Positions 52-23,282 of a DNA stretch of 23,917 nt are shown piece after piece. The notes below the pieces were generated by a model that worked only from the letters and a program-made list of their open reading frames with translations, was not told where the DNA came from and ran no database searches. The first letter of the stretch is position 1; each line of letters opens with the position of its first letter. This stretch comes from a virus, in the IMG/VR virus record IMGVR_UViG_3300000176_000053, positions 1 to 23,917 of that record. One strand, given 5' to 3'. A program made the position numbers and the translations under genes.

Positions 52-519
52 ATGAGCAGACCAAACCTTCCCCCAGAGTTGCGCCTAATAGATGGGAAAT
101 CCCCTGGCGCAGTAACCCTTCCCGATCATGTGAGCAAAAGAATTCCCCACGCAGATTGGTTGGCAAACCCAGACAACTGGAGCAAGTCAAGATTCATACA
201 GGAAACATCGGATTACTTGTATGATGTTTATGGCATAGGTGATGACCAGAACAAACATACCTTGGCCATACTTGCAGAGCAAATGGATTTGTATATTCAA
301 TGCTCTAAAGGTATTATGAATGAAGGTATTATTTCGGAATTTAATGATGGTAAAACTATTGGCCCTAATCCTTATATTACAGTTCGTGATAAAACGCTTA
401 CTCAGATTGTTCGCTTAATGAATGAATTGGGATTAACCCCTAAGAGTAGGTTAGCAAATACTAACAAAAGAGAAAATAGTCCAGCGGCAAGATTTTTGGC
501 TGGCCCACTAGCAAGATGA
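52..519 (+). CDS. terS: Terminase small subunit, P27-like family
   Basis: Probable DNA-recognition subunit of the packaging motor, which selects the concatemer and hands it to the large terminase. The 155-residue length fits small terminases. The second half holds GPNPYITVRDKTLTQIVRLM followed by NELGLTPKSR (about residues 103-132), a pattern typical of P27-family proteins, where 'NP....RDK....I..L...LGLTP.SR' is the recognisable core. The middle (residues 64-90) is predicted helical. The stop codon overlaps the start of the large terminase (ATGA at 516-519), so the two are probably translationally coupled, and this adjacency supports the call. The ATG at 52 is chosen because only AT-rich leader lies upstream. 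Confidence 0.85.
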   Translation: MSRPNLPPELRLIDGKSPGAVTLPDHVSKRIPHADWLANPDNWSKSRFIQETSDYLYDVYGIGDDQNKHTLAILAEQMDLYIQCSKGIMNEGIISEFNDGKTIGPNPYITVRDKTLTQIVRLMNELGLTPKSRLANTNKRENSPAARFLAGPLAR

Positions 520-2174
520 ATTGGCAAGACGGAATAGTTTACGCAAGAGATGTAATCAAAGGTGAAATCAATGTATGTCGGGATGTTCGCCTGGCGTGTC
601 AGCGTTTCATAAATCAATACGAAAACAAAGAATGGGAATGGGTCTTTGATGAACGCTTCCCAGATCATGTGCTGGAGTTCGCATCCATTTTGGTACATAC
701 CAAAGGCCCTGATGCTGGCAAGCCAGTAATATTAGAACCATTCCAAATACTTTTTATTTGCGCCATCTATGGGTTTCGTTCTAAAAAAGATTTAACCAAG
801 CGCATGGTGTCGGATGTAATACTATACATTCCCCGCAAAGCTGGTAAATCAACACTAACCGCCGTCATTGCTTTATACGAATTACAGTTTGGCGAAAAAG
901 GCCCAGAAGTATTTACGCTGGCTACCAATCGTGAACAGGCAACCATTGTTTTTGATTCGGCCAAAGGATTTGTTGAAGCAATGCCAAAGTGGTCAGCCGA
1001 TCTTTATGCGCCAAGCAAATACGAAATCAAAAAAGCTGGCGATTCGCAATCAATGTTTAAAGCCCTATCAAGGGACACCAAGAAAACTGGTGACGGTAAA
1101 AACCCATCATGCGTGATCGTGGATGAAGCGGCGCAAATCGTAGATCGCAATTCCATTGAAGTATTACATTCGGGTATGGTTGCCCGTCAAAATCCATTGC
1201 GGATATATATTACAACTGCCAGCTTCACTAAAGACACCAAGTTTTATGAAGATATGACAATGTATCAATCTATGTTGTATGGTGAAGCAAAAGATAATCC
1301 CCGTTGGTTTGGCTTGCTTTATGGGCTTGATCCACAAGATGATTGGAAAGACCCAGCATCTTGGGCAAAAGCAAATCCAATGCACGGCATTAGCGTGTTT
1401 GATGATGCCATTGCCGCCAGAGCCGAAGAAGCCAAGCATAAGCCAGCGGCACTTAATGAATTTCTTTGTAAAACCCTTAACATCTATGTAAGTGCCAATA
1501 GCGCATGGATTGATCGCCAGCCTTGGGATGATTCACAAGCGCAATTAAGGGATAACCCCGAAGCCGTGTTTATTGGATTTGACTTGGCGGCAACACGAGA
1601 TTTAAACGCAGTATGCACATTTAAGCGTTTTGGAGAATTAGATTATGAAGCTGAATTTCAATTTTTTTTGCCAGAAGAAGGGTTATCCCTAATACCGAAG
1701 CATTATCAAGATATTTTTCAAATGGCCATTGAATCTGGTATTTTAAAATTGACTGAAGGCAATGTAATGGATGATAGAGAAATTAGCCAATACATTCAAA
1801 ATCAAGCCGAAAAATATGATGTTAAGGAAGTTGGATACGATGCGTACAATGCGGCCAGTTTAGTTTCCAGATTGCATGATGCTGGAATACCAGTCAAAAA
1901 AGTGGGTCAAGGTATGGCCGTAATGAATAATCCATCCAAATATGTCGAAAAATTAATATTAAATAAACAAATCAAGCATGATGGAAACCCATTTGTAGGA
2001 TGGCAATTAAGTAACTGCGAAGTTTATGAAGATGTAAATGGAAATATTAAGGTTAGAAAGAACGAAGCAGATAAAGCGGCCAAGGTTGATGGAATTATTG
2101 CCATGATTATTGCGGCACATTGTTCATTAGATAACCCTTTTGTTTCAAATTCATTCGGTTTCAGAAGTTTTTGA
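516..2174 (+). CDS. terL: Terminase large subunit (packaging ATPase/nuclease), HK97-like
   Basis: Motor and headful/cos nuclease that translocates DNA through the portal into the prohead. The 552 residues match the Terminase_1/HK97 type. The N-terminal ATPase has a Walker A variant PRKAGKS (106-112) and Walker B CVIVDEA (199-205, D203-E204), followed by a coupling-like ITTAS (232-236). The C-terminal RNase H-like nuclease shows the three expected acidic sites: D356 in GFDLA, D442 in GYDAYN and D525 in KVDGI. All key residues are present, so the enzyme looks intact. It overlaps the small subunit by 4 bases and is followed 33 bases later by the portal gene. Confidence 0.96.
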   Translation: MNWQDGIVYARDVIKGEINVCRDVRLACQRFINQYENKEWEWVFDERFPDHVLEFASILVHTKGPDAGKPVILEPFQILFICAIYGFRSKKDLTKRMVSDVILYIPRKAGKSTLTAVIALYELQFGEKGPEVFTLATNREQATIVFDSAKGFVEAMPKWSADLYAPSKYEIKKAGDSQSMFKALSRDTKKTGDGKNPSCVIVDEAAQIVDRNSIEVLHSGMVARQNPLRIYITTASFTKDTKFYEDMTMYQSMLYGEAKDNPRWFGLLYGLDPQDDWKDPASWAKANPMHGISVFDDAIAARAEEAKHKPAALNEFLCKTLNIYVSANSAWIDRQPWDDSQAQLRDNPEAVFIGFDLAATRDLNAVCTFKRFGELDYEAEFQFFLPEEGLSLIPKHYQDIFQMAIESGILKLTEGNVMDDREISQYIQNQAEKYDVKEVGYDAYNAASLVSRLHDAGIPVKKVGQGMAVMNNPSKYVEKLILNKQIKHDGNPFVGWQLSNCEVYEDVNGNIKVRKNEADKAAKVDGIIAMIIAAHCSLDNPFVSNSFGFRSF

Positions 2175-2207: not shown

Positions 2208-3692
2208 ATGGGCGTAATGGATATATTCAACAAAGATAAATATAATTTGCCTAAAAATACGGCAAGTGAATCATTATCGCCATCCCAAAACCTTTCCGAA
2301 AACAATACACTTTTCGGACAAACCATGTTGGGAAACCAGATTCTTAGACAGAATCAAGGTGGACAACAGGGCGCAAACTTTCAATTACTGTATGTAACCA
2401 CAGCATCAGCTACCAATGCTGGTCGTATTGTGGATATGTCGGTTCTGTCCCGTAACAGCACCGTAATGTCATGCGTGAATATTATCGCTAGAGCATTGGC
2501 GCAATGTTCGTTAAGCGTGGTTTATGAGCAAGATGATGGCACTTTTGTTAATGCAATTCAATCCGATAAAGCTGGCCCAAGAGATAAAAACAAAGCCAAG
2601 CAAGTATTGAATTTGCTAAGAACGCCAAACAACTTTCAAAGCCAATATGAGTTCTGGTATCAATGGGTCATGTGGTATATGTTGGCGGGCGAAGTATTTA
2701 CGCTTCTTTATCGCAAAGATCAAAAAGACCCAAATCAAACTCCAATCGAACTTTACAACCTTGATTCCACATTAATTACGGTTCAAGCCAGCCCAGCCCG
2801 TTACCCTACATATCGGGTTTCAACTCCAACATACGGATTTAACAAAGATGAGCCATTGGCCGCATATCAAGTTATTCATGTTACTGAAGCGGCATGGCAA
2901 GGTTCTGCTGGTTTCAATAAAGGAATTTTGGCAACTGAATTGGTTGCCTTAGATACTGATATTGACTTGTATGCCAACTATGTAATGCAAAACGGCGCAA
3001 AGCCATCTGGTATTTTTAGCACAACCCAAGTTATTCCAGATACCAAATTTAAAGAAATTGCGGCCCGTTTGAAAGAAGCATGGTCAAGCATGACTGGAAG
3101 CCGACCAAGCGATCTAAGTAAGCCAGGCCAAGGTATGTTGCTAGATCAAGGTATGACATACACGCCAGTTCATATGCTTACTTTGCAAGATGCTGAAGCA
3201 AGCAAATTGAAAGATCAAACTACCAAGCGTATTTGTGCATTGTTTGGAGTTCCAGCGCAATTGCTTGGTTTGGAAATGGGTAAATATAATAATACTCAAA
3301 CATTGTTGGATGAATTTTACAAAACCACAATGTATCCAATTATTATCAATATTGAACAAAAATTCAAAATGGGATTATTAAAAGGTTATCCAAACCTTTC
3401 AATTCGTTTTGATACTAAAGACTTCTTAAAAGGCGCACCATTAGATCAAATGAACTTTGTTAATGCTGGTGTTGCTGGTGGAATATTGACACCTAATGAA
3501 GCCCGTGAATATTTGAATATGGCTAATGTGGATGGCGGCGATCAAATTGGCGCAGTTAATACACAAGCATTATCCGCAGACAACATTCCAGTTAATACAA
3601 AAACCGCTAAAATTATTCCAGGAACAAGTCCTCAAGATACTGGCGGCGGCGGTGGGAATCAAACCAAAAAGATGAATATTGGTAAAACATGA
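2208..3692 (+). CDS. Portal protein, HK97 family
   Basis: Twelve-subunit ring at the unique capsid vertex through which DNA passes. The 494 residues carry HK97-portal features: an N-terminal wing region, the stem/crown segment with KDQTTKRICALFGVPAQLLG and then GKYNNTQTLLDEFYKTTMYP (about residues 335-385), and a C-terminal barrel region NEAREYLNM (about 435). The last 30 residues are a Gly-rich, Lys-containing tail (GGGGG). Start 2208 is supported by AAGGG (about 2195-2199) before AAAAATCATG, the same leader seen before the capsid gene at 4608. The position between large terminase and protease is canonical. Confidence 0.95.
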   Translation: MGVMDIFNKDKYNLPKNTASESLSPSQNLSENNTLFGQTMLGNQILRQNQGGQQGANFQLLYVTTASATNAGRIVDMSVLSRNSTVMSCVNIIARALAQCSLSVVYEQDDGTFVNAIQSDKAGPRDKNKAKQVLNLLRTPNNFQSQYEFWYQWVMWYMLAGEVFTLLYRKDQKDPNQTPIELYNLDSTLITVQASPARYPTYRVSTPTYGFNKDEPLAAYQVIHVTEAAWQGSAGFNKGILATELVALDTDIDLYANYVMQNGAKPSGIFSTTQVIPDTKFKEIAARLKEAWSSMTGSRPSDLSKPGQGMLLDQGMTYTPVHMLTLQDAEASKLKDQTTKRICALFGVPAQLLGLEMGKYNNTQTLLDEFYKTTMYPIIINIEQKFKMGLLKGYPNLSIRFDTKDFLKGAPLDQMNFVNAGVAGGILTPNEAREYLNMANVDGGDQIGAVNTQALSADNIPVNTKTAKIIPGTSPQDTGGGGGNQTKKMNIGKT

Positions 3693-3877
3693 TAAAACTT
3701 GATTCGCAGATTAAAACTAATAGTGTTAAACTACCAGTAAAATCTAAGAAATCCCATATAATATACGACATAAATCTATCGATTACGAATGGGATAATTA
3801 ATGAATCAGAATCTAACCCTAGTTTGCGAAGCAAAACTAAGCCTAGAAAAACAAGGCAAAGAATCATCAAGTCCTAG
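3689..3877 (+). CDS. Possible small basic protein overlapping portal end and protease start
   Basis: An open frame of 62 codons begins at an ATGA overlap with the portal stop, the coupling arrangement used elsewhere in this operon, and runs 77 bases into the protease gene in another frame. The product would be Lys/Arg-rich at its C-terminus (KTKPRKTRQRIIKS) with no domain I recognise. If it is not coding, positions 3693-3800 are the longest non-coding gap in the head module. The large overlap and unremarkable composition make a chance frame quite likely. Confidence 0.2.
   Translation: MIKLDSQIKTNSVKLPVKSKKSHIIYDINLSITNGIINESESNPSLRSKTKPRKTRQRIIKS
3693..3800 (+). promoter_or_regulatory. Intergenic region with -10-like TATAAT and an inverted repeat before the protease gene
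   Basis: A perfect TATAAT lies at 3757-3762, but no good -35 element is visible 16-18 bases upstream. A 7-base inverted repeat, ATCCCAT (3751-3757) and ATGGGAT (3789-3795), encloses a 31-base AT-rich loop, and its right arm ends five bases before the protease ATG. The protease gene has no strong Shine-Dalgarno sequence apart from GGGA inside that arm. The region could provide extra transcription of the protease/capsid genes or modulate protease translation; this is inference from sequence only. Confidence 0.3.
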
Positions 3878-4598
3878 TGGCGCAATTCAAGCCCGTGTAA
3901 CATCATGGGGCAAGCGTGAAGGCGCAGACGGTAGAAAATTTAACTACCAGCCAGAGGGATTCCAAGAATGGGCAGATCAATTTAAATCTGAAGGCAAACC
4001 GTTGCCAATGTTTTTGAACCACAATGACATGGGTATGCCAGTCGGTCAATGGAATGAATTTAACTTTGACAAAGACGGAATGGTAGCAAAAGGGAACCTT
4101 TTTATGAACACATCAACTGGTTCTGATCTTTATGAAGTATTGAAATCTAGCCCAAATCTATTTGGCGGCGTTTCAGTTGGCGCATATGCTGATGAAGCCC
4201 GTTTGGTTGATGATGATGGCGAGCCATTGGATGATGATTCTGATGAAGAAGGTTATTTCCAGATCACTAAAGGCGGTTTGCGTGAAGTTTCGGTTGTTAT
4301 GTATCCAAACAATCCAAATGCTGAAATCCAAAAGTTAGAATATTTTGATGGTGAAGGCCATCCAAACCCAAGGAATATCGAGAAGGCATTGCGTGATGCT
4401 GGGCTTTCTCGTAAAGATGCGACCACCGCATCTTCAATCCTTAAAAAGTTGCTTGAAGGGCGTGATGCCATCAAGGAAGTTGTTAAGGAAGCCCCACAAC
4501 AAGGCGATCTTGAAGCGGTGGTAAACGAAGCTGATGCAATTCTTAAAGCCCTAGAGGAACGAGATTTGTTGAAAGCATTATCTAAGCGCATTAAATAA
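3801..4598 (+). CDS. Prohead maturation protease, S78 (HK97 gp4-like)
   Basis: Serine protease that is packaged in the prohead and removes the scaffolding segment of the capsid protein before expansion. The core has the expected layout: MFLNHND (70-76, catalytic His 74 of the HN/HD motif), then FGGVSVGAY (121-129, catalytic Ser 125), then LREVSVVMYPNNPNAEI (160-176), the strand that follows the Ser in this family and often carries the acidic third residue. An acidic linker (DDDGEPLDDDSDEE) and an alpha-helical C-terminal part (residues about 190-265, ALRDAGLSRKDA) follow and may bind scaffold. An in-frame stop just upstream (3795-3797) excludes an earlier start. The major capsid gene begins 9 bases later. 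Confidence 0.9.
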   Translation: MNQNLTLVCEAKLSLEKQGKESSSPSGAIQARVTSWGKREGADGRKFNYQPEGFQEWADQFKSEGKPLPMFLNHNDMGMPVGQWNEFNFDKDGMVAKGNLFMNTSTGSDLYEVLKSSPNLFGGVSVGAYADEARLVDDDGEPLDDDSDEEGYFQITKGGLREVSVVMYPNNPNAEIQKLEYFDGEGHPNPRNIEKALRDAGLSRKDATTASSILKKLLEGRDAIKEVVKEAPQQGDLEAVVNEADAILKALEERDLLKALSKRIK

Positions 4599-4607
4599 GG
4601 AAAAATC

Positions 4608-5951
4608 ATGTCTGATAAAATCATTGAAAAGTTAGATGCTATTGAAGCATCAAACGAATCTAAGATTCAAGAAGTAAAAACCGAAGCTGTTTCTGCTATT
4701 GAAGCCGCTAAAGCTGAAATGGCTGAGAAATTAGCTACTATTGAAGCCCGTGTTGCTGAAATTCATGCCGCACCTTCCATCATCAAGCCATCTAAATCCA
4801 TCAAAGAAGATGTAAACAAAATGGTTCGTGAGCAACTTAAAAAGTTTGCTAAAAAAGGTTCAATGGAAAAAGAACTCAAGATGTTTGAAGATGAAGCACA
4901 ATATCAAGCATACTTAACCGAGAGTTCAGCTTTGACTGGTGGCGGTTACAATGTGGGTGGTCGTACAGCTTACGATCCAGTATTCCATACATTGCGTTTG
5001 ATTAACCCTATGCGTGGTCTTTCCCGTAATGTTACAACTGATGGTTCTACATATCAATTTAGAGCCAAAACGGGCAATTCTGGGGCTACCTGGGGTTATG
5101 CAGTTCAAAACAACGGATCAGCTACAACTGAAAACACAAACATCTGGCAATTAGTATTGCAAGATTTGAATGTCCAGTTCCCGATCCGTACTGCGGCTCT
5201 TGATGACATCGATGGCTTGGAAGCCAATGTGGTTGATGATATGTTGATGGAATTCAGCCAAGTTGAAGGCCAATCAATGATTCAAAACAATGACCAAACC
5301 GATTCACCTAATACATACGGTGGAACACAAGGTCTGCGTGGTTTGAACCAATACGCTACATACGGTGCTAATGCTTCTTATACTGGCGGCACAATCACTA
5401 CTGCATCTTTCGGTACATCTGGTATTTCTACAAGCAACGGTTTGAACAGCCTTGCCGTATATGACCAAATCACTACCAACGGTAATGTAGTTGGTGCGGC
5501 TAATGTAACCTATGATGACATCATTAACTTTATCTACAATCTGCCACAACAATATTGGACACCAACAGCGAAGTTCTTGGTAAACCCAATTTTCTTGGCA
5601 CAGATTCGTGGCTTAAAAGATAGCAACGGCACACCAATTTTCGAAAGAATGCATCCAATGGATGAAGATGGTATTGTTGGCCGTATGCTTGGTTTCGATG
5701 TTGTTGTTAATAAGTACCTTGACAACCCAAGCGAATTCTCTGGCAATACAAAGGCAAGTTTATTCCCAATGTATTTCGGTGATTGGCAACGAGGTCATAC
5801 CATTGTTGATCGTTTGAACATGGTATTGCGTAGATATGACCAGACATTGCCTGGTTACATCACATTCTATGGTGAGAAGCGTTTGGCCGCATCAAATGTA
5901 GACCCATTCAGTATCATTGCTTATCGTTCTACTGGTACAGCAACAAGCTAA
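4608..5951 (+). CDS. Major capsid protein 1, HK97 fold with N-terminal scaffolding domain
   Basis: Main shell protein. The 447 residues divide into an N-terminal charged, Ala/Glu/Lys-rich helical region (1-about 100; strong coiled-coil character in residues 5-55) and an HK97-fold shell domain from about residue 105 (SSALTGGGYNVGG). The N-terminal part corresponds in length and composition to the HK97 delta domain, which acts as internal scaffold and is cut off by the protease. By analogy, the cut should fall near residues 95-107. Shell-domain landmarks include NPMRGLSR, FSQVEGQSMIQNND and a C-terminal GEKRLAASNVDPF. The ribosome site AAGGA before AAAATCATG is strong. A shorter paralogue lies at 6317-7348 beyond an HNH gene. 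Confidence 0.95.
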   Translation: MSDKIIEKLDAIEASNESKIQEVKTEAVSAIEAAKAEMAEKLATIEARVAEIHAAPSIIKPSKSIKEDVNKMVREQLKKFAKKGSMEKELKMFEDEAQYQAYLTESSALTGGGYNVGGRTAYDPVFHTLRLINPMRGLSRNVTTDGSTYQFRAKTGNSGATWGYAVQNNGSATTENTNIWQLVLQDLNVQFPIRTAALDDIDGLEANVVDDMLMEFSQVEGQSMIQNNDQTDSPNTYGGTQGLRGLNQYATYGANASYTGGTITTASFGTSGISTSNGLNSLAVYDQITTNGNVVGAANVTYDDIINFIYNLPQQYWTPTAKFLVNPIFLAQIRGLKDSNGTPIFERMHPMDEDGIVGRMLGFDVVVNKYLDNPSEFSGNTKASLFPMYFGDWQRGHTIVDRLNMVLRRYDQTLPGYITFYGEKRLAASNVDPFSIIAYRSTGTATS

Positions 5952-5969
5952 GTATCAAAGAAGTATTTA

Positions 5970-6296
5970 ATGCGCCATAAATGTAAACATTGTGGAAAAC
6001 CTGGGGAGTCAAAAGGTCTGACTTCCCAGGGCATTAAAAGATATAGAAATGAATGTTCGATATGTAGAAAACAGAAAAAAAGGTCTGGATTTACTTACGG
6101 AATATTCAAAAAGAATTATTGTGAGTTGTGCGGATTTAAGCCCATCCATATGTGTCAATTAGATGTGGATCATAAAGATGGTGATAGAAAGAATAATCTT
6201 GAAAGTAATTTGCAAACTTTATGTGCAAATTGTCATAGATTAAAGACTTTTTTATCTGGCGATAATGTCGATCAAATATCGTTAGAATTGAAATAA
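5970..6296 (+). CDS. HNH endonuclease, probably a free-standing homing enzyme
   Basis: Small DNA endonuclease of 108 residues. An N-terminal zinc-ribbon-like part has Cys pairs C5/C8 and C29/C32. The HNH part has CELC (51-54), then LDVDHKDGDRKNN (64-76, with the D67-H68 pair), N80, and CANCH (85-89), giving the usual zinc-stabilised beta-beta-alpha metal nuclease with all key residues. It is basic and sits between two paralogous capsid genes; its stop overlaps an ATG at 6296 (TAATG). The weak ribosome site is AAAGAAG (about 5957-5963). Position and small size favour a selfish homing endonuclease. A packaging role, as for HNH proteins next to terminases, is less likely because it is far from terL. 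Confidence 0.9.
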   Translation: MRHKCKHCGKPGESKGLTSQGIKRYRNECSICRKQKKRSGFTYGIFKKNYCELCGFKPIHMCQLDVDHKDGDRKNNLESNLQTLCANCHRLKTFLSGDNVDQISLELK

Positions 6297-6307
6297 TGAT
6301 CGATTTT

Positions 6308-6312
6308 GGAAG
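6308..6312 (+). promoter_or_regulatory. Ribosome binding site deciding the start of capsid protein 2
   Basis: GGAAG lies four bases before the ATG at 6317. The in-frame ATG at 6296, which overlaps the HNH stop, has no Shine-Dalgarno sequence and would add only MIDFGRN. The downstream start is therefore preferred. Confidence 0.55.
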
Positions 6313-6316
6313 AAAT

Positions 6317-7348
6317 ATGAAAAACGAACTAATCCTAGAAGCAATCAAGTCAGCCCTCACCGATAAAAACGGTCAAGAGGTTAAGGTAAATTTAAAAGAA
6401 GCATCTGCCCTTACTGGCTCTGGCTCTGGGGTTGGTGGTCGTGTTATTTATGATGATGCGTTTGCATCTTTGCGTATGGCTAACCCGTTGCGGGTTGCAA
6501 GCCGTGAAATTACCACGATTGGTTCAGATCAGGCTTTTGTAGTAAAAACTGGTAATGCAACTAATCCCACAAATCCTTGGGGCTATCCAGTAAATGTGAA
6601 TACTGGTACTCCAAACATTGCCACTTCATTTTGGCAACTTCCATTGCAAGCAATTACAGCCCAATTGCCTGTTCGTACTGCCGTAATGTCAGATATTAAT
6701 AATCTTGATCCATCTATTGTTGGTGACTTGATGCTGGAATTTAGCCAGCAAGAAGCCCTTTCAATGATTCAAAACAACGATCAAGCTGGCTCTAGCACAA
6801 CATCAACTGGTGCTACAAATGGTTTGCGTGGTTTAAATTATTATCCAAGTGGATCAACTGCGGCATTTGGTACAAGCGGTTCTGGCGCAACTAATGGTTT
6901 GCATACAGTTAAAACTGTAAACACCGCAACTGGTGGAGCAATTGCTTATGACGATATTGCCGCTTTAGCATCTGCATTGCCAGCCCAATATTGGAGTTTG
7001 CCAGGTACTTCTTGGCATATGCATCCATCAACCATTCTTGCATTGCGTGAACTAACAAGTTCAACTGGTCAGCCATTGTTTGTTGAAGTTGGCGATTCTG
7101 ATGGTGGCGCAGTTGCTCATGTGTTTGGATTCCCAGTTGTTCCAAACCCATATATGCAGACCGTTGCTTCTGGTGCGTTCCCTGTTTATTTGGCTAATTG
7201 GGATAAGTTTGTAACTATTGTGGATCACGAAGAATTTAGCATCCAGCGTTTAGAGCAAACACAACCAGGTACAGTAACTCTGTATGCTGAAAAGCGTGTA
7301 TGTTCTACAATTCGTGATGTATTTGCTGGTGTTCGTTTAGAATCATAA
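6317..7348 (+). CDS. Capsid protein 2: paralogue of the major capsid protein without the scaffolding domain
   Basis: A second HK97-fold shell protein of 343 residues (350 if the ATG at 6296 is used). It aligns along its length with the shell domain of the protein at 4608-5951. In the first 52 aligned residues from the SALTG motif I count 29 identities, and both share FSQ.E..SMIQNND, GLRGLN, ALPAQYW/NLPQQYW, and Y.EKR near the end. It has only about 30 residues before the conserved SALTG (residues 30-34), against 106 in the first protein, so it lacks the coiled-coil delta-like region. It may be a minor shell or penton protein co-assembling with protein 1, or a decaying duplicate, but the frame is intact. 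A connector gene follows 7 bases later. Confidence 0.9.
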   Translation: MKNELILEAIKSALTDKNGQEVKVNLKEASALTGSGSGVGGRVIYDDAFASLRMANPLRVASREITTIGSDQAFVVKTGNATNPTNPWGYPVNVNTGTPNIATSFWQLPLQAITAQLPVRTAVMSDINNLDPSIVGDLMLEFSQQEALSMIQNNDQAGSSTTSTGATNGLRGLNYYPSGSTAAFGTSGSGATNGLHTVKTVNTATGGAIAYDDIAALASALPAQYWSLPGTSWHMHPSTILALRELTSSTGQPLFVEVGDSDGGAVAHVFGFPVVPNPYMQTVASGAFPVYLANWDKFVTIVDHEEFSIQRLEQTQPGTVTLYAEKRVCSTIRDVFAGVRLES

Positions 7349-7355
7349 GGCCAAT

Positions 7356-8024
7356 ATGCCATTAGATAGTTATACAAATGGGCCGTATTTAGGTACGGCT
7401 CGTAATCCCTTTAGCTATGAAAAGATTGAGCAGACTAGCCGAGATATTCAAACTCCTTGGCTTTCTCTAGATCAAATCACCGAACAATTAAACTTGTTTG
7501 GTGATACTAGCCAAGACGATTACCTTACCAGCCTTGAATTGGCCACCCGTATGGCCATCGAGGACTATTTGGGTATGTCCATATTCCCAATTAGCTATAA
7601 AGTCTATTATGGGGCTTTTAATGGCATGAGTGGCACACAAACACTACTTAATTTGCCAGAAGTAAGCCAAGACAATCAAAATCAAATTGGCACGGTTATT
7701 AATTCCGTTGGATATTGGAATGGAAACCAGCCGCCAACATTTACTTTGCTTTCGCCTACTTCATATTATTATGATCCTACTGGCAACCAAGTTATTGCTA
7801 CTGGATTCCCAGAAGAAGTAAACCAAATAATGAGCAATCCTATTGTGGTTCAATACACAACAGGAGCAAGTCCTTATGCTCAATATCCAGTTATTCAACA
7901 AGCTGGTTTATTGCTTTTGACGCATTTATATAACAATCGTAGCGATACTGTTATGGGTAATATGACCAAAATACCATTTGGCGTAGAGCAATTATTACGG
8001 CCATACAAACCGCTGGTGTTCTAA
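7356..8024 (+). CDS. Head-tail connector (adaptor), HK97 gp6-like
   Basis: Likely adaptor ring that binds below the portal and starts the neck. The 222-residue protein has the helical N-terminal pattern of the family (SLDQITEQLNL, then DDYLTSLELATRMAIEDYLG, residues about 36-70), a variable beta middle, and the diagnostic C-terminal end IPFGVEQLLRPYKPLVF. The helix before it, AGLLLLTHLYNNR, also matches. An AAGG ribosome site precedes the ATG, and the stop overlaps the next start (TAATG at 8022-8026). Position right after the capsid genes supports the role. Confidence 0.82.
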   Translation: MPLDSYTNGPYLGTARNPFSYEKIEQTSRDIQTPWLSLDQITEQLNLFGDTSQDDYLTSLELATRMAIEDYLGMSIFPISYKVYYGAFNGMSGTQTLLNLPEVSQDNQNQIGTVINSVGYWNGNQPPTFTLLSPTSYYYDPTGNQVIATGFPEEVNQIMSNPIVVQYTTGASPYAQYPVIQQAGLLLLTHLYNNRSDTVMGNMTKIPFGVEQLLRPYKPLVF

Positions 8025-19909: not shown

Positions 19910-22606
19910 ATGGCAAATATTAATGTAACAACTATTGATGAAAACAATATTCAAGTAACCGTAACGCCACAACCAGCCAATGTAATTTCTATTGACCAAG
20001 GTCAATTTGGCCCATCTGGATTTAGTGGCATTTCTGGGTATAGCGGATATTCTGGATATAGTGGTCAATCTGGGCAATCAGGATTTTCTGGATATTCTGG
20101 TAGTGGTGTATCGGGCTGGTCTGGATTTTCTGGATTTAGCGGCGAATCTGGGTACTCAGGCGCAATTGGTATTAGTGGCTTCTCAGGTATTAGCGGATAC
20201 TCAGGCGCAGTTGGCCAGTCTGGAACATCAGGATATAGCGGATTTTCTGGCATATCTGGTTACAGCGGTTCTGGCGTAAGTGGCTGGTCTGGATTTAGTG
20301 GAATTTCTGGATACTCAGGTTTTTCTGGATATTCTGGTTCTGGCGTAAGTGGTTGGTCTGGATTCTCAGGCGAATCAGGATTTAGCGGAATTAGCGGATT
20401 TTCTGGATACTCAGGATATAGCGGTATTTCTGGGTATTCTGGTTCTGGTGTATCTGGCTATTCTGGATTTAGCGGATACAGCGGCCAACAAGGTACATCC
20501 ATTAACATTAAAGGATCGGTTGCAACACCAACAGATTTACCCGCTACTGGCAACAATCCTAATGATGCTTATATTGTCGATTCCAATGGTGATCTTTATG
20601 TATGGACAGGATCAACTTGGAACAATGTTGGTCAAATTGTTGGCCCAACTGGGGCAAGCGGGATTAGCGGTTATAGCGGATATAGCGGCATTAGTGGGTA
20701 TAGCGGATATTCTGGCATTAGCGGATTTAGCGGGGAAATTGGGCAATCAGGTATAAGTGGTTATAGCGGCTTTAGCGGCATTTCTGGGTATTCTGGAAGC
20801 GGCATATCGGGCTGGTCTGGTTTTAGCGGTATAAGCGGATATAGTGGCTTCTCAGGGTATTCTGGAAGCGGTGTATCTGGTTATTCTGGATTCTCAGGAA
20901 TATCTGGATATTCTGGCGCAATAGGTTTATCTGGAACATCAGGTTATTCTGGTTTTAGCGGTGCAGTTGGCGCACAAGGTACATCTGGATATTCTGGTAT
21001 TTCTGGTTGGTCTGGATATAGCGGTATTGATGGCGCATCAGGTTACAGCGGATTCTCAGGAATTAGTGGGTATTCTGGACAAGATGGTCAGTCTGGAACA
21101 TCAGGATATAGTGGATCAGGAATCAGCGGGTATAGTGGATATTCGGGCATTTCTGGATACAGCGGAATTGACGGCCAATCAGGGTATTCTGGAATATCAG
21201 GGTTTAGTGGATACTCAGGAATTAATGGAGCATCTGGATACTCAGGAATCAGCGGATTTTCTGGATACTCAGGCATTAGCGGTTACAGCGGCTCTGGCGT
21301 AAGTGGTTATTCTGGATATAGTGGCTCTGGCATTAGTGGTTATTCTGGTTATTCTGGAGCAATTGGAACAAGTGGATTTTCTGGAATTAGCGGGTATAGC
21401 GGGTACTCAGGGATTAGCGGTTACAGCGGTTCTGGCGTATCGGGATATAGCGGTTACAGCGGTTCTGGTGTAAGTGGATATTCGGGCTATTCTGGATATT
21501 CTGGATCAGGAGTATCAGGTTATAGCGGTTATTCTGGTAGCGGGGTATCAGGATACAGCGGTTATTCTGGAATCAGCGGTTATAGCGGGTATTCTGGTTC
21601 TGGATTTTCTGGATACAGCGGTTATTCTGGAATCAGCGGTTATAGCGGGTATTCTGGTTCTGGAATTTCTGGATATAGTGGATACTCGGGAATATCAGGG
21701 TATAGCGGCTCTGGTGTAAGTGGATATAGCGGTTACTCAGGATATAGCGGTATTTCTGGGTATTCTGGTTTTAGCGGTATAAGCGGATATAGTGGCGCAA
21801 TCGGTCAATCTGGGACATCAGGTTACAGCGGATACTCTGGAATTAATGGTACAAATGGCGCATCTGGATATAGCGGATACAGCGGGGCAACTGGCGCACA
21901 AGGTTTAAGTGGTTACTCAGGCATAAACGGTACAAATGGCGCAAGTGGTTATTCTGGATACTCAGGATATTCTGGAATAAATGGCAGTAATGGAGCAACT
22001 GGAGCATCAGGATATAGCGGTTATTCTGGGCAAAATGGTGCTACTGGTGCGACAGGCGCAAGCGGTTACTCAGGTTATAGCGGAGCAACTGGCCCAACTG
22101 TTTATCCTGGTGCTGGAATTCCTTTATCAACAGGATCATCTTGGGGGACTTCTTATAGCGCATCAACATTAGCATCGTTTCTTAGTGGTCAAACGATGAA
22201 CATTAATGGTTCATCAACATCATGCACAGGAAATGCGGCAACAGCCACTACTGCGACTACTGCAAATGGTTTAAATACTGGCAATAGCTATACAGCGGTA
22301 GCATTTACAGCAACATCTGATGAACGATTAAAAACTAATTGGCGATCTGTTACTTCAAATTTTGTTGCAAAATTGGCAAAAGTAAAATCAGGTATTTTTG
22401 ATAGAAAATCTAACGGATTATCTGATTCTGGTGTTTCAGCACAATCATTGCGTGAATTATTACCAGAAGCCATTATTGAAGATAAAGATGGGTTTTTATC
22501 AGTAAACTATGGCGGTGCGGCATTAGTTTCTGCGATAGAATTGGCAAAAGAAATTGAATTTCTTAAAAAGGAAATAGCAAAGCTAAAAACATCAATAAAA
22601 AAATAG
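19910..22606 (+). CDS. Collagen-like Gly-X-Ser tail fibre with C-terminal S74 self-cleaving chaperone
   Basis: Long trimeric fibre of 898 residues. Residues 1-33 form a short beta head. Residues 34-193 and 247-729 are collagen-like triplets, mainly Gly-Tyr/Ile/Phe/Val/Trp-Ser, with Gly-Ser-Gly breaks. Residues 194-246 are a compact insert (KGSVATPTDLPATG...DAYIVDSNGDLYVWTG). Residues 730-802 are Thr/Ala/Ser-rich (SCTGNAATATTATTANGL), like fibre tips. Residues 803-898 are a Peptidase_S74 chaperone: SDERLK begins at S803 (codon 22316), GVSAQSLRELLPEAI follows, and the end is a coiled coil. In characterised S74 proteins (EndoNF), the chain cuts itself just before the Ser of S-D-x-R-L-K after trimerisation. 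It is probably one of the long side fibres. Confidence 0.9.
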   Translation: MANINVTTIDENNIQVTVTPQPANVISIDQGQFGPSGFSGISGYSGYSGYSGQSGQSGFSGYSGSGVSGWSGFSGFSGESGYSGAIGISGFSGISGYSGAVGQSGTSGYSGFSGISGYSGSGVSGWSGFSGISGYSGFSGYSGSGVSGWSGFSGESGFSGISGFSGYSGYSGISGYSGSGVSGYSGFSGYSGQQGTSINIKGSVATPTDLPATGNNPNDAYIVDSNGDLYVWTGSTWNNVGQIVGPTGASGISGYSGYSGISGYSGYSGISGFSGEIGQSGISGYSGFSGISGYSGSGISGWSGFSGISGYSGFSGYSGSGVSGYSGFSGISGYSGAIGLSGTSGYSGFSGAVGAQGTSGYSGISGWSGYSGIDGASGYSGFSGISGYSGQDGQSGTSGYSGSGISGYSGYSGISGYSGIDGQSGYSGISGFSGYSGINGASGYSGISGFSGYSGISGYSGSGVSGYSGYSGSGISGYSGYSGAIGTSGFSGISGYSGYSGISGYSGSGVSGYSGYSGSGVSGYSGYSGYSGSGVSGYSGYSGSGVSGYSGYSGISGYSGYSGSGFSGYSGYSGISGYSGYSGSGISGYSGYSGISGYSGSGVSGYSGYSGYSGISGYSGFSGISGYSGAIGQSGTSGYSGYSGINGTNGASGYSGYSGATGAQGLSGYSGINGTNGASGYSGYSGYSGINGSNGATGASGYSGYSGQNGATGATGASGYSGYSGATGPTVYPGAGIPLSTGSSWGTSYSASTLASFLSGQTMNINGSSTSCTGNAATATTATTANGLNTGNSYTAVAFTATSDERLKTNWRSVTSNFVAKLAKVKSGIFDRKSNGLSDSGVSAQSLRELLPEAIIEDKDGFLSVNYGGAALVSAIELAKEIEFLKKEIAKLKTSIKK
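20009..22096 (+). repeat. Tandem Gly-X-Ser (collagen-like) coding repeat
   Basis: The repeat region encodes hundreds of 9-base Gly-X-Ser units, interrupted at about 20495-20644 by a unique insert. At DNA level the units differ strongly through synonymous codons (Ser as tct, agc, agt, tca; Gly as gga, ggt, ggc, ggg), so most are not exact copies. Gly-Ser-Gly breaks that shorten the register by one residue recur about 16 times. Confidence 0.92.
21551..21664 (+). repeat. 54-bp perfect direct repeat with 60-bp period inside the fibre gene
   Basis: Positions 21551-21604 and 21611-21664 are identical, starting GGATACAGCGGTTATTCTGG. The encoded unit is GYSGYSGISGYSGYSGSG. Most other parts of the repeat tract differ at synonymous sites, so this copy pair looks like a recent 60-bp tandem duplication. 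It is in frame, adding 20 residues. Confidence 0.9.
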
Positions 22607-22613
22607 GATAAAA

Positions 22614-23282
22614 ATGAATAAAACAATATATGGCCTTGATGTGGCTACTCAATGGAATCAGATTCTTGAACTCCATTGTTTAGCCCTTGCCAAAGAGCAT
22701 CACCCAGACTGGTATAGATGGCGGCTTACAAATAATTATGAACGAGCCGTATTTCTCAAAGGCGATCCAGTATTTCCAAGGGAAACGCAAAGATACGAAT
22801 GGGCAAGGAAAAATTTATTTGGTAAATATGTATTAGAAATAGGATGTTCAACAGGGTATGGTTATCAATTTTTACCAGATAACACAAATTATTTAGGTTT
22901 AGATTACGACCCAATTATTATCGATGTTGCAAATGAACAAAACTGGCATCCAAATGCTTTTTTTCAATGTGCCAATATTAATAATTATGAGTTTCTTAAT
23001 TACGATACCATTATCGCTTTTGAAGTTATTGAGCATTTAGATAATGGGCTGGACATTGTAAAGTTATTACAAAAGCATTGTAAAGTATTACTAATTACCG
23101 TTCCCCATAATGAACCAAAAGGATTTTGGGGCGAACATCATAAGTTGCATGGATTGACCGAAAAAGATTTTCCTGGATTTAAATTTAATTACATTAACGA
23201 GCATGGCCGCATCAGCGATACATTAGAGCCAATCTCAGAATCTAATCGTTGCAATTTAATGATTGGGCGTTGGGATGCCTAA
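22614..23282 (+). CDS. Class I SAM-dependent methyltransferase
   Basis: 222-residue Rossmann-type methyltransferase. Motif I is YVLEIGCSTGYGYQFL (72-87, SAM-binding ExGxxxGxG-like). The acidic strand-2 end is YLGLDYDP (93-100, D97 likely ribose-binding). Motif 'post-II/IV' is DTIIAFEVIEHLDNG (131-145), typical of the Methyltransf_11/23 group that acts on sugars, small molecules or proteins rather than on DNA; there is no DPPY-type DNA motif. The residues before 70 may form a substrate lid. AGGA before the ATG gives a good start. It overlaps the glycosyltransferase gene by 8 bases, suggesting a shared pathway such as glycan decoration. Confidence 0.85.
   Translation: MNKTIYGLDVATQWNQILELHCLALAKEHHPDWYRWRLTNNYERAVFLKGDPVFPRETQRYEWARKNLFGKYVLEIGCSTGYGYQFLPDNTNYLGLDYDPIIIDVANEQNWHPNAFFQCANINNYEFLNYDTIIAFEVIEHLDNGLDIVKLLQKHCKVLLITVPHNEPKGFWGEHHKLHGLTEKDFPGFKFNYINEHGRISDTLEPISESNRCNLMIGRWDA

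Follow-up and report, generated by a model that had tools for sequence, protein, structure and literature searches.

The window, meaning the whole stretch of DNA analysed, is a virus record of 23,917 bases and represents a fragment of a genome that reaches ~36-39 kb in the longest relatives. Its genes follow the order terminase large subunit, portal, S78 prohead protease, MCP1, HNH, MCP2 and head-tail adaptor. The first-pass annotation had read two intact capsid frames here, and both are indeed open, at 4608-5951 and 6317-7348. The features of the head region are as follows.

516..2174, + strand: terminase large subunit (Pfam TerL_nuclease, 2.3e-39)
2208..3692, + strand: portal protein (Pfam Phage_portal, 3.4e-62)
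3801..4598, + strand: prohead protease, Peptidase_S78 (Pfam, 1.7e-9; PHROG head maturation protease)
4608..5951, + strand: MCP1, major capsid protein with an N-terminal scaffold-like (delta) region, 447 aa (Pfam Phage_capsid, 2.7e-28; PHROG major head protein)
4608..4913, + strand: N-terminal delta/scaffold-like region of MCP1, residues 1-102 (from the alignment; mostly missing from MCP2)
5970..6296, + strand: HNH endonuclease gene in the MCP1-MCP2 spacer, 108 aa, 327 bases (Pfam HNH, 3.7e-5; PHROG HNH, 6.4e-12)
6000..6030, + strand: 12-bp hairpin within the 5' part of the HNH gene (-21.8 kcal/mol, z -4.4)
6308..6312, + strand: probable ribosome-binding site of MCP2, GGAAG (from the sequence; GGA lies 5' of MCP2 in 87 of 89 distinct loci)
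6317..7348, + strand: MCP2, scaffold-less capsid paralogue and proposed penton protein, 343 aa (Pfam Phage_capsid, 1.9e-23; PHROG major head protein; HK97 fold; homology to MCP1)
7356..8024, + strand: head-tail adaptor, first gene 3' of MCP2 (PHROG head-tail adaptor, 5.7e-12)

Further along, 3' of other tail genes, positions 19910-22606 encode an 898-aa protein made largely of GYSGISGYSG-type, collagen-like repeats, which is followed by a methyltransferase-domain gene at 22614-23282.

MCP1 and MCP2 are homologous. BLASTP aligned them with 137 identities in 344 positions (40%; 211 bits, E 4e-69), the 29 identities counted by the first-pass annotation were recovered in 51 alignment columns running from SALTG to KTGN, and the FSQ.E..SMIQNNDQ and EKR segments that it had noticed are common to both proteins. 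Against the PF05065 profile MCP1 scored 99.6 bits and MCP2 83.7 bits, both above the curated cut-off of 24.2 and hence members of the family. The predicted structure of MCP2 (AF2, moderate pLDDT of 70) has the HK97 fold along its length, the best VIA-align match (Z 21.6, 249 residues, rmsd 4.8) being the RcGTA capsid 6tsu. The model of MCP1 (pLDDT 41) was too poor for a fold test, and an HK97 fold is predicted for this protein from sequence homology.

The two proteins differ most visibly at their N-termini. About 105 residues precede the SALTG motif in MCP1 and about 29 in MCP2, and in the alignment MCP2 is without ~75 N-terminal residues of MCP1. This part of MCP1 contains a long helix at about residues 3-53 (block pLDDT 54-72 in an otherwise poor model). 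The arrangement of a fused delta region, with 102 residues before the shell domain and an S78 protease encoded upstream, was found for MCP1 and not for MCP2, so that MCP2 amounts to a shell domain in which most of the fused scaffold-like (delta) region is missing, and the N-terminal region of MCP1 would act as the scaffold. The loops of MCP1 that are missing from MCP2 fall mostly in the region of the G-loop and axial (A) domain (17 and 9 columns); an A-domain loop of MCP2 is found at residues 255-270. The likely start of MCP2 is ATG 6317 and not the in-frame ATG 6296, because GGAAG stands at 6308-6312 and the start position is conserved in relatives. The two genes also have 17 identical bases (TCAATGATTCAAAACAA) at 5276-5292 in MCP1 and 6763-6779 in MCP2, coding SMIQN; as this site reads SMM.NN in the MCP2 of most relatives, local gene conversion or convergence is possible in the lineage of the window.

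To place the pair among its relatives, we compiled 462 loci from searches with MCP1, MCP2, the two proteins of Methylophilaceae phage P19250A and further queries, some of which overlap on the same contig. Both genes were adjacent in 433 of the 462, after 215 of 237 in the first search round. Of the other 29 loci, 28 show a single gene only where the contig ends and one is a match of 41 residues only. No relative with one copy, the loss in relatives that the first-pass annotation had suggested looking for, was found among the 462 loci, and none of those with at least 1 kb of room carried only one of the two genes. The pair is also present in the isolate P19250A, whose annotation calls MCP1 a 'gene transfer agent capsid protein' and leaves MCP2 (P19250A_0006) as a 'hypothetical protein'; this isolate is the sole match of MCP2 among 50,697 phage records. 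Six metagenome-bin contigs match as well, one of them reaching only MCP2 before the contig end. The next matches of MCP1 with coverage of most of its length come from phages with a single capsid protein and reach at most ~26% identity. One contig of 75,987 bases (IMGVR_UViG_3300022748_000017; L223 and L275) carries two different MCP1-MCP2 pairs ~40 kb apart, probably because the assembly fused the genomes of two related phages.

In a maximum-likelihood tree of 30 pairs and four single-MCP outgroups, MCP2 formed one clade (support 100/100) on a stem of 1.58 changes per site, far exceeding the branches within the clade; the single-MCP relatives (~26% identity or less) are too distant for a confident root of the MCP1/MCP2 split, and the long branches are to be read with that caution. 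As MCP2 is a single clade with a long stem, the duplication predates the sampled group. Purifying selection acts on both copies, with a median dN/dS of 0.128 for MCP1 and 0.131 for MCP2 over 1,122 locus pairs with unsaturated synonymous sites, and no internal stops were present in 166 full-length pairs. Selection on the second copy, the other point on which its role had been questioned, is equal to that on the first and not relaxed; together with the retention of the pair, this bears out the earlier suggestion of two kept, functional copies. Relaxed selection or frame loss of MCP2 is rejected on the dN/dS values and the lack of stops, except for two loci (L415 and L435) whose MCP2 frame is broken in its early part, through sequencing error or rare loss. 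Over the longer term 99 columns are conserved only in MCP1 and 34 only in MCP2, with mean distances of 0.41 and 0.56, respectively. This stronger long-term constraint on MCP1 fits a main shell protein with a more local partner. By distance-matrix correlation there was no special co-evolution of MCP1 with MCP2 (r 0.68, against 0.67-0.73 for MCP1 with portal, protease and adaptor). As the matrices show no tighter link between the two proteins and their subtrees disagree in places, MCP1 and MCP2 probably recombine among lineages.

The junction between the two genes was found to carry a conserved signal. Nearly all relatives have a spacer of 47-82 bp in which a GC-rich hairpin follows closely on the MCP1 stop codon, setting MCP1 apart from MCP2 and from the genes for neck and tail. 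Stems of five or more G-C pairs were detected in 226 of 228 distinct junctions and can be seen by eye in the remaining two, while a T-rich tail follows the hairpin in 209 of the 228. The density of such hairpins is 9.8 per kb in the spacer, compared with 0-0.02 per kb in both genes and 2 kb on either side, and the folding z was below -2 in 77 of 89 spacers. By inspection, and with no covariation statistic attached, the stem sequences vary widely between lineages with the pairing retained. The hairpin is thereby a candidate intrinsic terminator or attenuator that would end part of the transcripts after MCP1, and it may have a role in mRNA stability. The sequence before the start codons, with AAGG at 86 of 89 loci for MCP1 and at 11 of 89 for MCP2, points the same way, as it agrees with MCP1 being made in greater amount than MCP2.

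In the window itself, the HNH gene has replaced the usual spacer. The hairpin at 6000-6030, ~50 bases 3' of the MCP1 stop, lies at the position of the terminator-like hairpin of the relatives but is without a T tract, and its activity is therefore doubtful. A consensus terminator scan of the window alone returned nothing between MCP1 and MCP2, because the spacer of the window is altered; the signal shows in the relatives. The spacer is also an insertion hotspot, holding the HNH gene in the window, GIY-YIG-like genes recognised by eye at three loci (L134, L403 and L422) and a small ORF of unknown function at three others (L049, L050 and L057); at L134 and L050 the usual hairpin is kept upstream of the insert.

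The sites at which the two paralogues differ are unevenly distributed as well. In HK97, the A-domains come together at the capsomer centre and the N-arm, E-loop and spine make most of the inter-capsomer contacts. Here, 12 of the 26 fixed sites that discriminate MCP1 from MCP2 are in the A-domain, which takes up 87 of 335 aligned columns (26%; Fisher p 0.02), and residues conserved in common are rarest in the same domain (14 of 87 columns against 69 of 248 elsewhere, p 0.03); the bias is modest and the domain limits were taken from one model. The N-arm, E-loop and spine are contact elements conserved in common. Lattice contacts kept and a ring centre changed would be the expected look of a dedicated penton protein. 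In T4, the mutations that let gp23 replace gp24 (bypass) fall within the capsomer (PMC3012670), in the A-domain (PMC12407261).

On these grounds we favour, as a reasonably probable though far from settled reading, a two-protomer HK97-type head with hexamers of MCP1, pentons of MCP2 and a ratio set by the hairpin. MCP1, with its scaffold-like (delta) region, would form hexamers and start procapsid assembly. MCP2 derives from one old duplication, having lost the scaffold-like region or never had it, and would fill the pentamer positions at the non-portal vertices, docking on the MCP1 lattice via the common N-arm, E-loop and spine, with an A-domain specialised for the five-fold ring. By ending part of the transcripts after the MCP1 stop, the hairpin would yield a surplus of MCP1 and keep MCP2 at the lower level of the neck and tail genes further downstream. 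We infer from the 36-39 kb genomes a T=7 geometry; a head of this kind, expected for ~37 kb, would hold ~55 penton against 360 hexon copies if MCP2 is present in virions and at the five-fold positions, and a terminator between the two genes would push the amounts the same way. The first-pass annotation had offered a mixed lattice, a penton protein or a size switch; the penton is favoured among them by the hairpin, the A-domain divergence and the missing scaffold region, none of the three being proven. Other points weigh against a penton-specific reading. A terminator after the shell gene would also be expected for any other low-copy role of MCP2, and single-MCP phages of similar size need no penton paralogue.

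A rather unlikely alternative is that MCP1 and MCP2 share capsomers whose composition follows the expression ratio, as in a Family 2B encapsulin. Random co-assembly of two HK97-fold paralogues has a precedent there (PMC12407261), and the common N-arm, E-loop and spine speak for it; however, MCP1 and MCP2 are 40% identical against ~70% across all Enc1 and Enc2 shell proteins, the A-domains that meet at the capsomer centre are what differ most, and the hairpin suggests unequal amounts. In a stricter form of sharing, which we regard as unlikely, the head would be an obligate heteromer, in which capsomers may mix both proteins at a ratio fixed by the hairpin and the choice between pentamer and hexamer is encoded genetically and not conformationally. 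If this were true, quasi-equivalence would have been abandoned throughout this group of small tailed phages from aquatic habitats.

It is quite unlikely that MCP2 serves a special site or head shape, as a portal-vertex collar, a ring of an elongated head or a size switch. The position of MCP2 3' of the hairpin, in one string of genes with the adaptor and neck genes, would suit such a role, and RcGTA provides a related shell able to change shape (PMC7296036). Against this, P19250A is described as a siphovirus and unusual heads go unmentioned in the mostly open literature consulted, which did not include the original P19250A description, and throughout the group the longest contigs gather around 36-39 kb, with no hint of two head sizes. 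Highly improbable is a role outside the lattice, in which MCP2 would be an assembly factor or decoy such as an assembly inhibitor or anti-satellite factor. Without the scaffold-like region MCP2 could poison assembly if overmade, and the hairpin probably keeps its level low; yet it retains a full-length shell domain, is under purifying selection equal to that on MCP1 and occurs in every relative with room for it, whereas a dispensable decoy would be expected to be lost in some lineages. The idea of a recent, neutral duplication that travelled with the HNH element, suggested by the HNH gene lying exactly between both copies in the window, deserves virtually no credence and is rejected, as the pair is universal and predates the group, and nearly all relatives are without the HNH gene.

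The closest working analogue of the proposed penton arrangement is T4, with gp23 in the hexamers and gp24 in the vertex pentamers. Both systems have two HK97-fold paralogues, the minor one at the vertices (as proposed here), both have a prohead protease, and the T4 bypass mutations and the fixed differences found here both lie in the A-domain. The gp23 and gp24 proteins are 17% identical (PMC12407261), against 40% here, and a propeptide is cleaved from gp24 (PMC5694885). In T4, a large prolate myovirus, the scaffold is a separate core, whereas the present phages have a genome of ~37 kb and a scaffold-like region fused to MCP1 only; the hairpin between the genes further sets the pair apart from gp23/gp24. 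Like gp24, MCP2 is a paralogue of the candidate hexamer protein in the same genome. Descent of MCP2 from gp24, which was compared by description only, is nevertheless unlikely because its nearest relative is MCP1, and an independent duplication is likely.

The Family 2B encapsulin Enc1/Enc2 of Streptomyces lydicus likewise has two HK97-fold shell paralogues encoded together, but it is a non-viral cellular compartment with random mixed capsomers and ~70% identity among its shell proteins; a complete phage head operon surrounds MCP1 and MCP2, and an assignment to the two-component encapsulins does not apply. The nearest solved structure by sequence for both proteins, and by fold for MCP2, is the Rhodobacter capsulatus GTA capsid Rcc01687, a single shell protein that makes hexamers and pentamers, unlike the present pair. 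HK97 gp5 and single-MCP phages such as Burkholderia phage Bcep176 have the same order of TerL, portal, protease, capsid and adaptor, and their capsid protein has an N-terminal extension before the shell domain, as does MCP1, but it is their only shell protein. According to PMC12407261, T4 is the other HK97-fold assembly known to use two protomers, and our survey of mostly open-access literature for phages with duplicated major capsid genes yielded T4, giant phages and the encapsulin only.

Two-protein heads have thus far been well documented mainly in the much larger T4, and the novelty here lies in the setting, a group of small HK97-type phages with an obligate scaffold-less second shell protein and a conserved hairpin between the two genes. 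In the textbook picture an HK97-type phage uses a single protein for pentamers and hexamers alike, and hundreds of small-genome phage contigs are now seen to keep two shell proteins with apparent control of their ratio. The heads of a large group of small aquatic tailed phages, most of them uncultivated, are probably built from two related shell proteins, of which one would form the faces and the other, lacking the scaffold, the corners. As the pair is present in the small isolate P19250A, the long-standing question of what sends an HK97-fold subunit into a five- or a six-fold ring becomes directly testable, and with it the question of whether loss of the fused scaffold-like region commits a subunit to the vertex.
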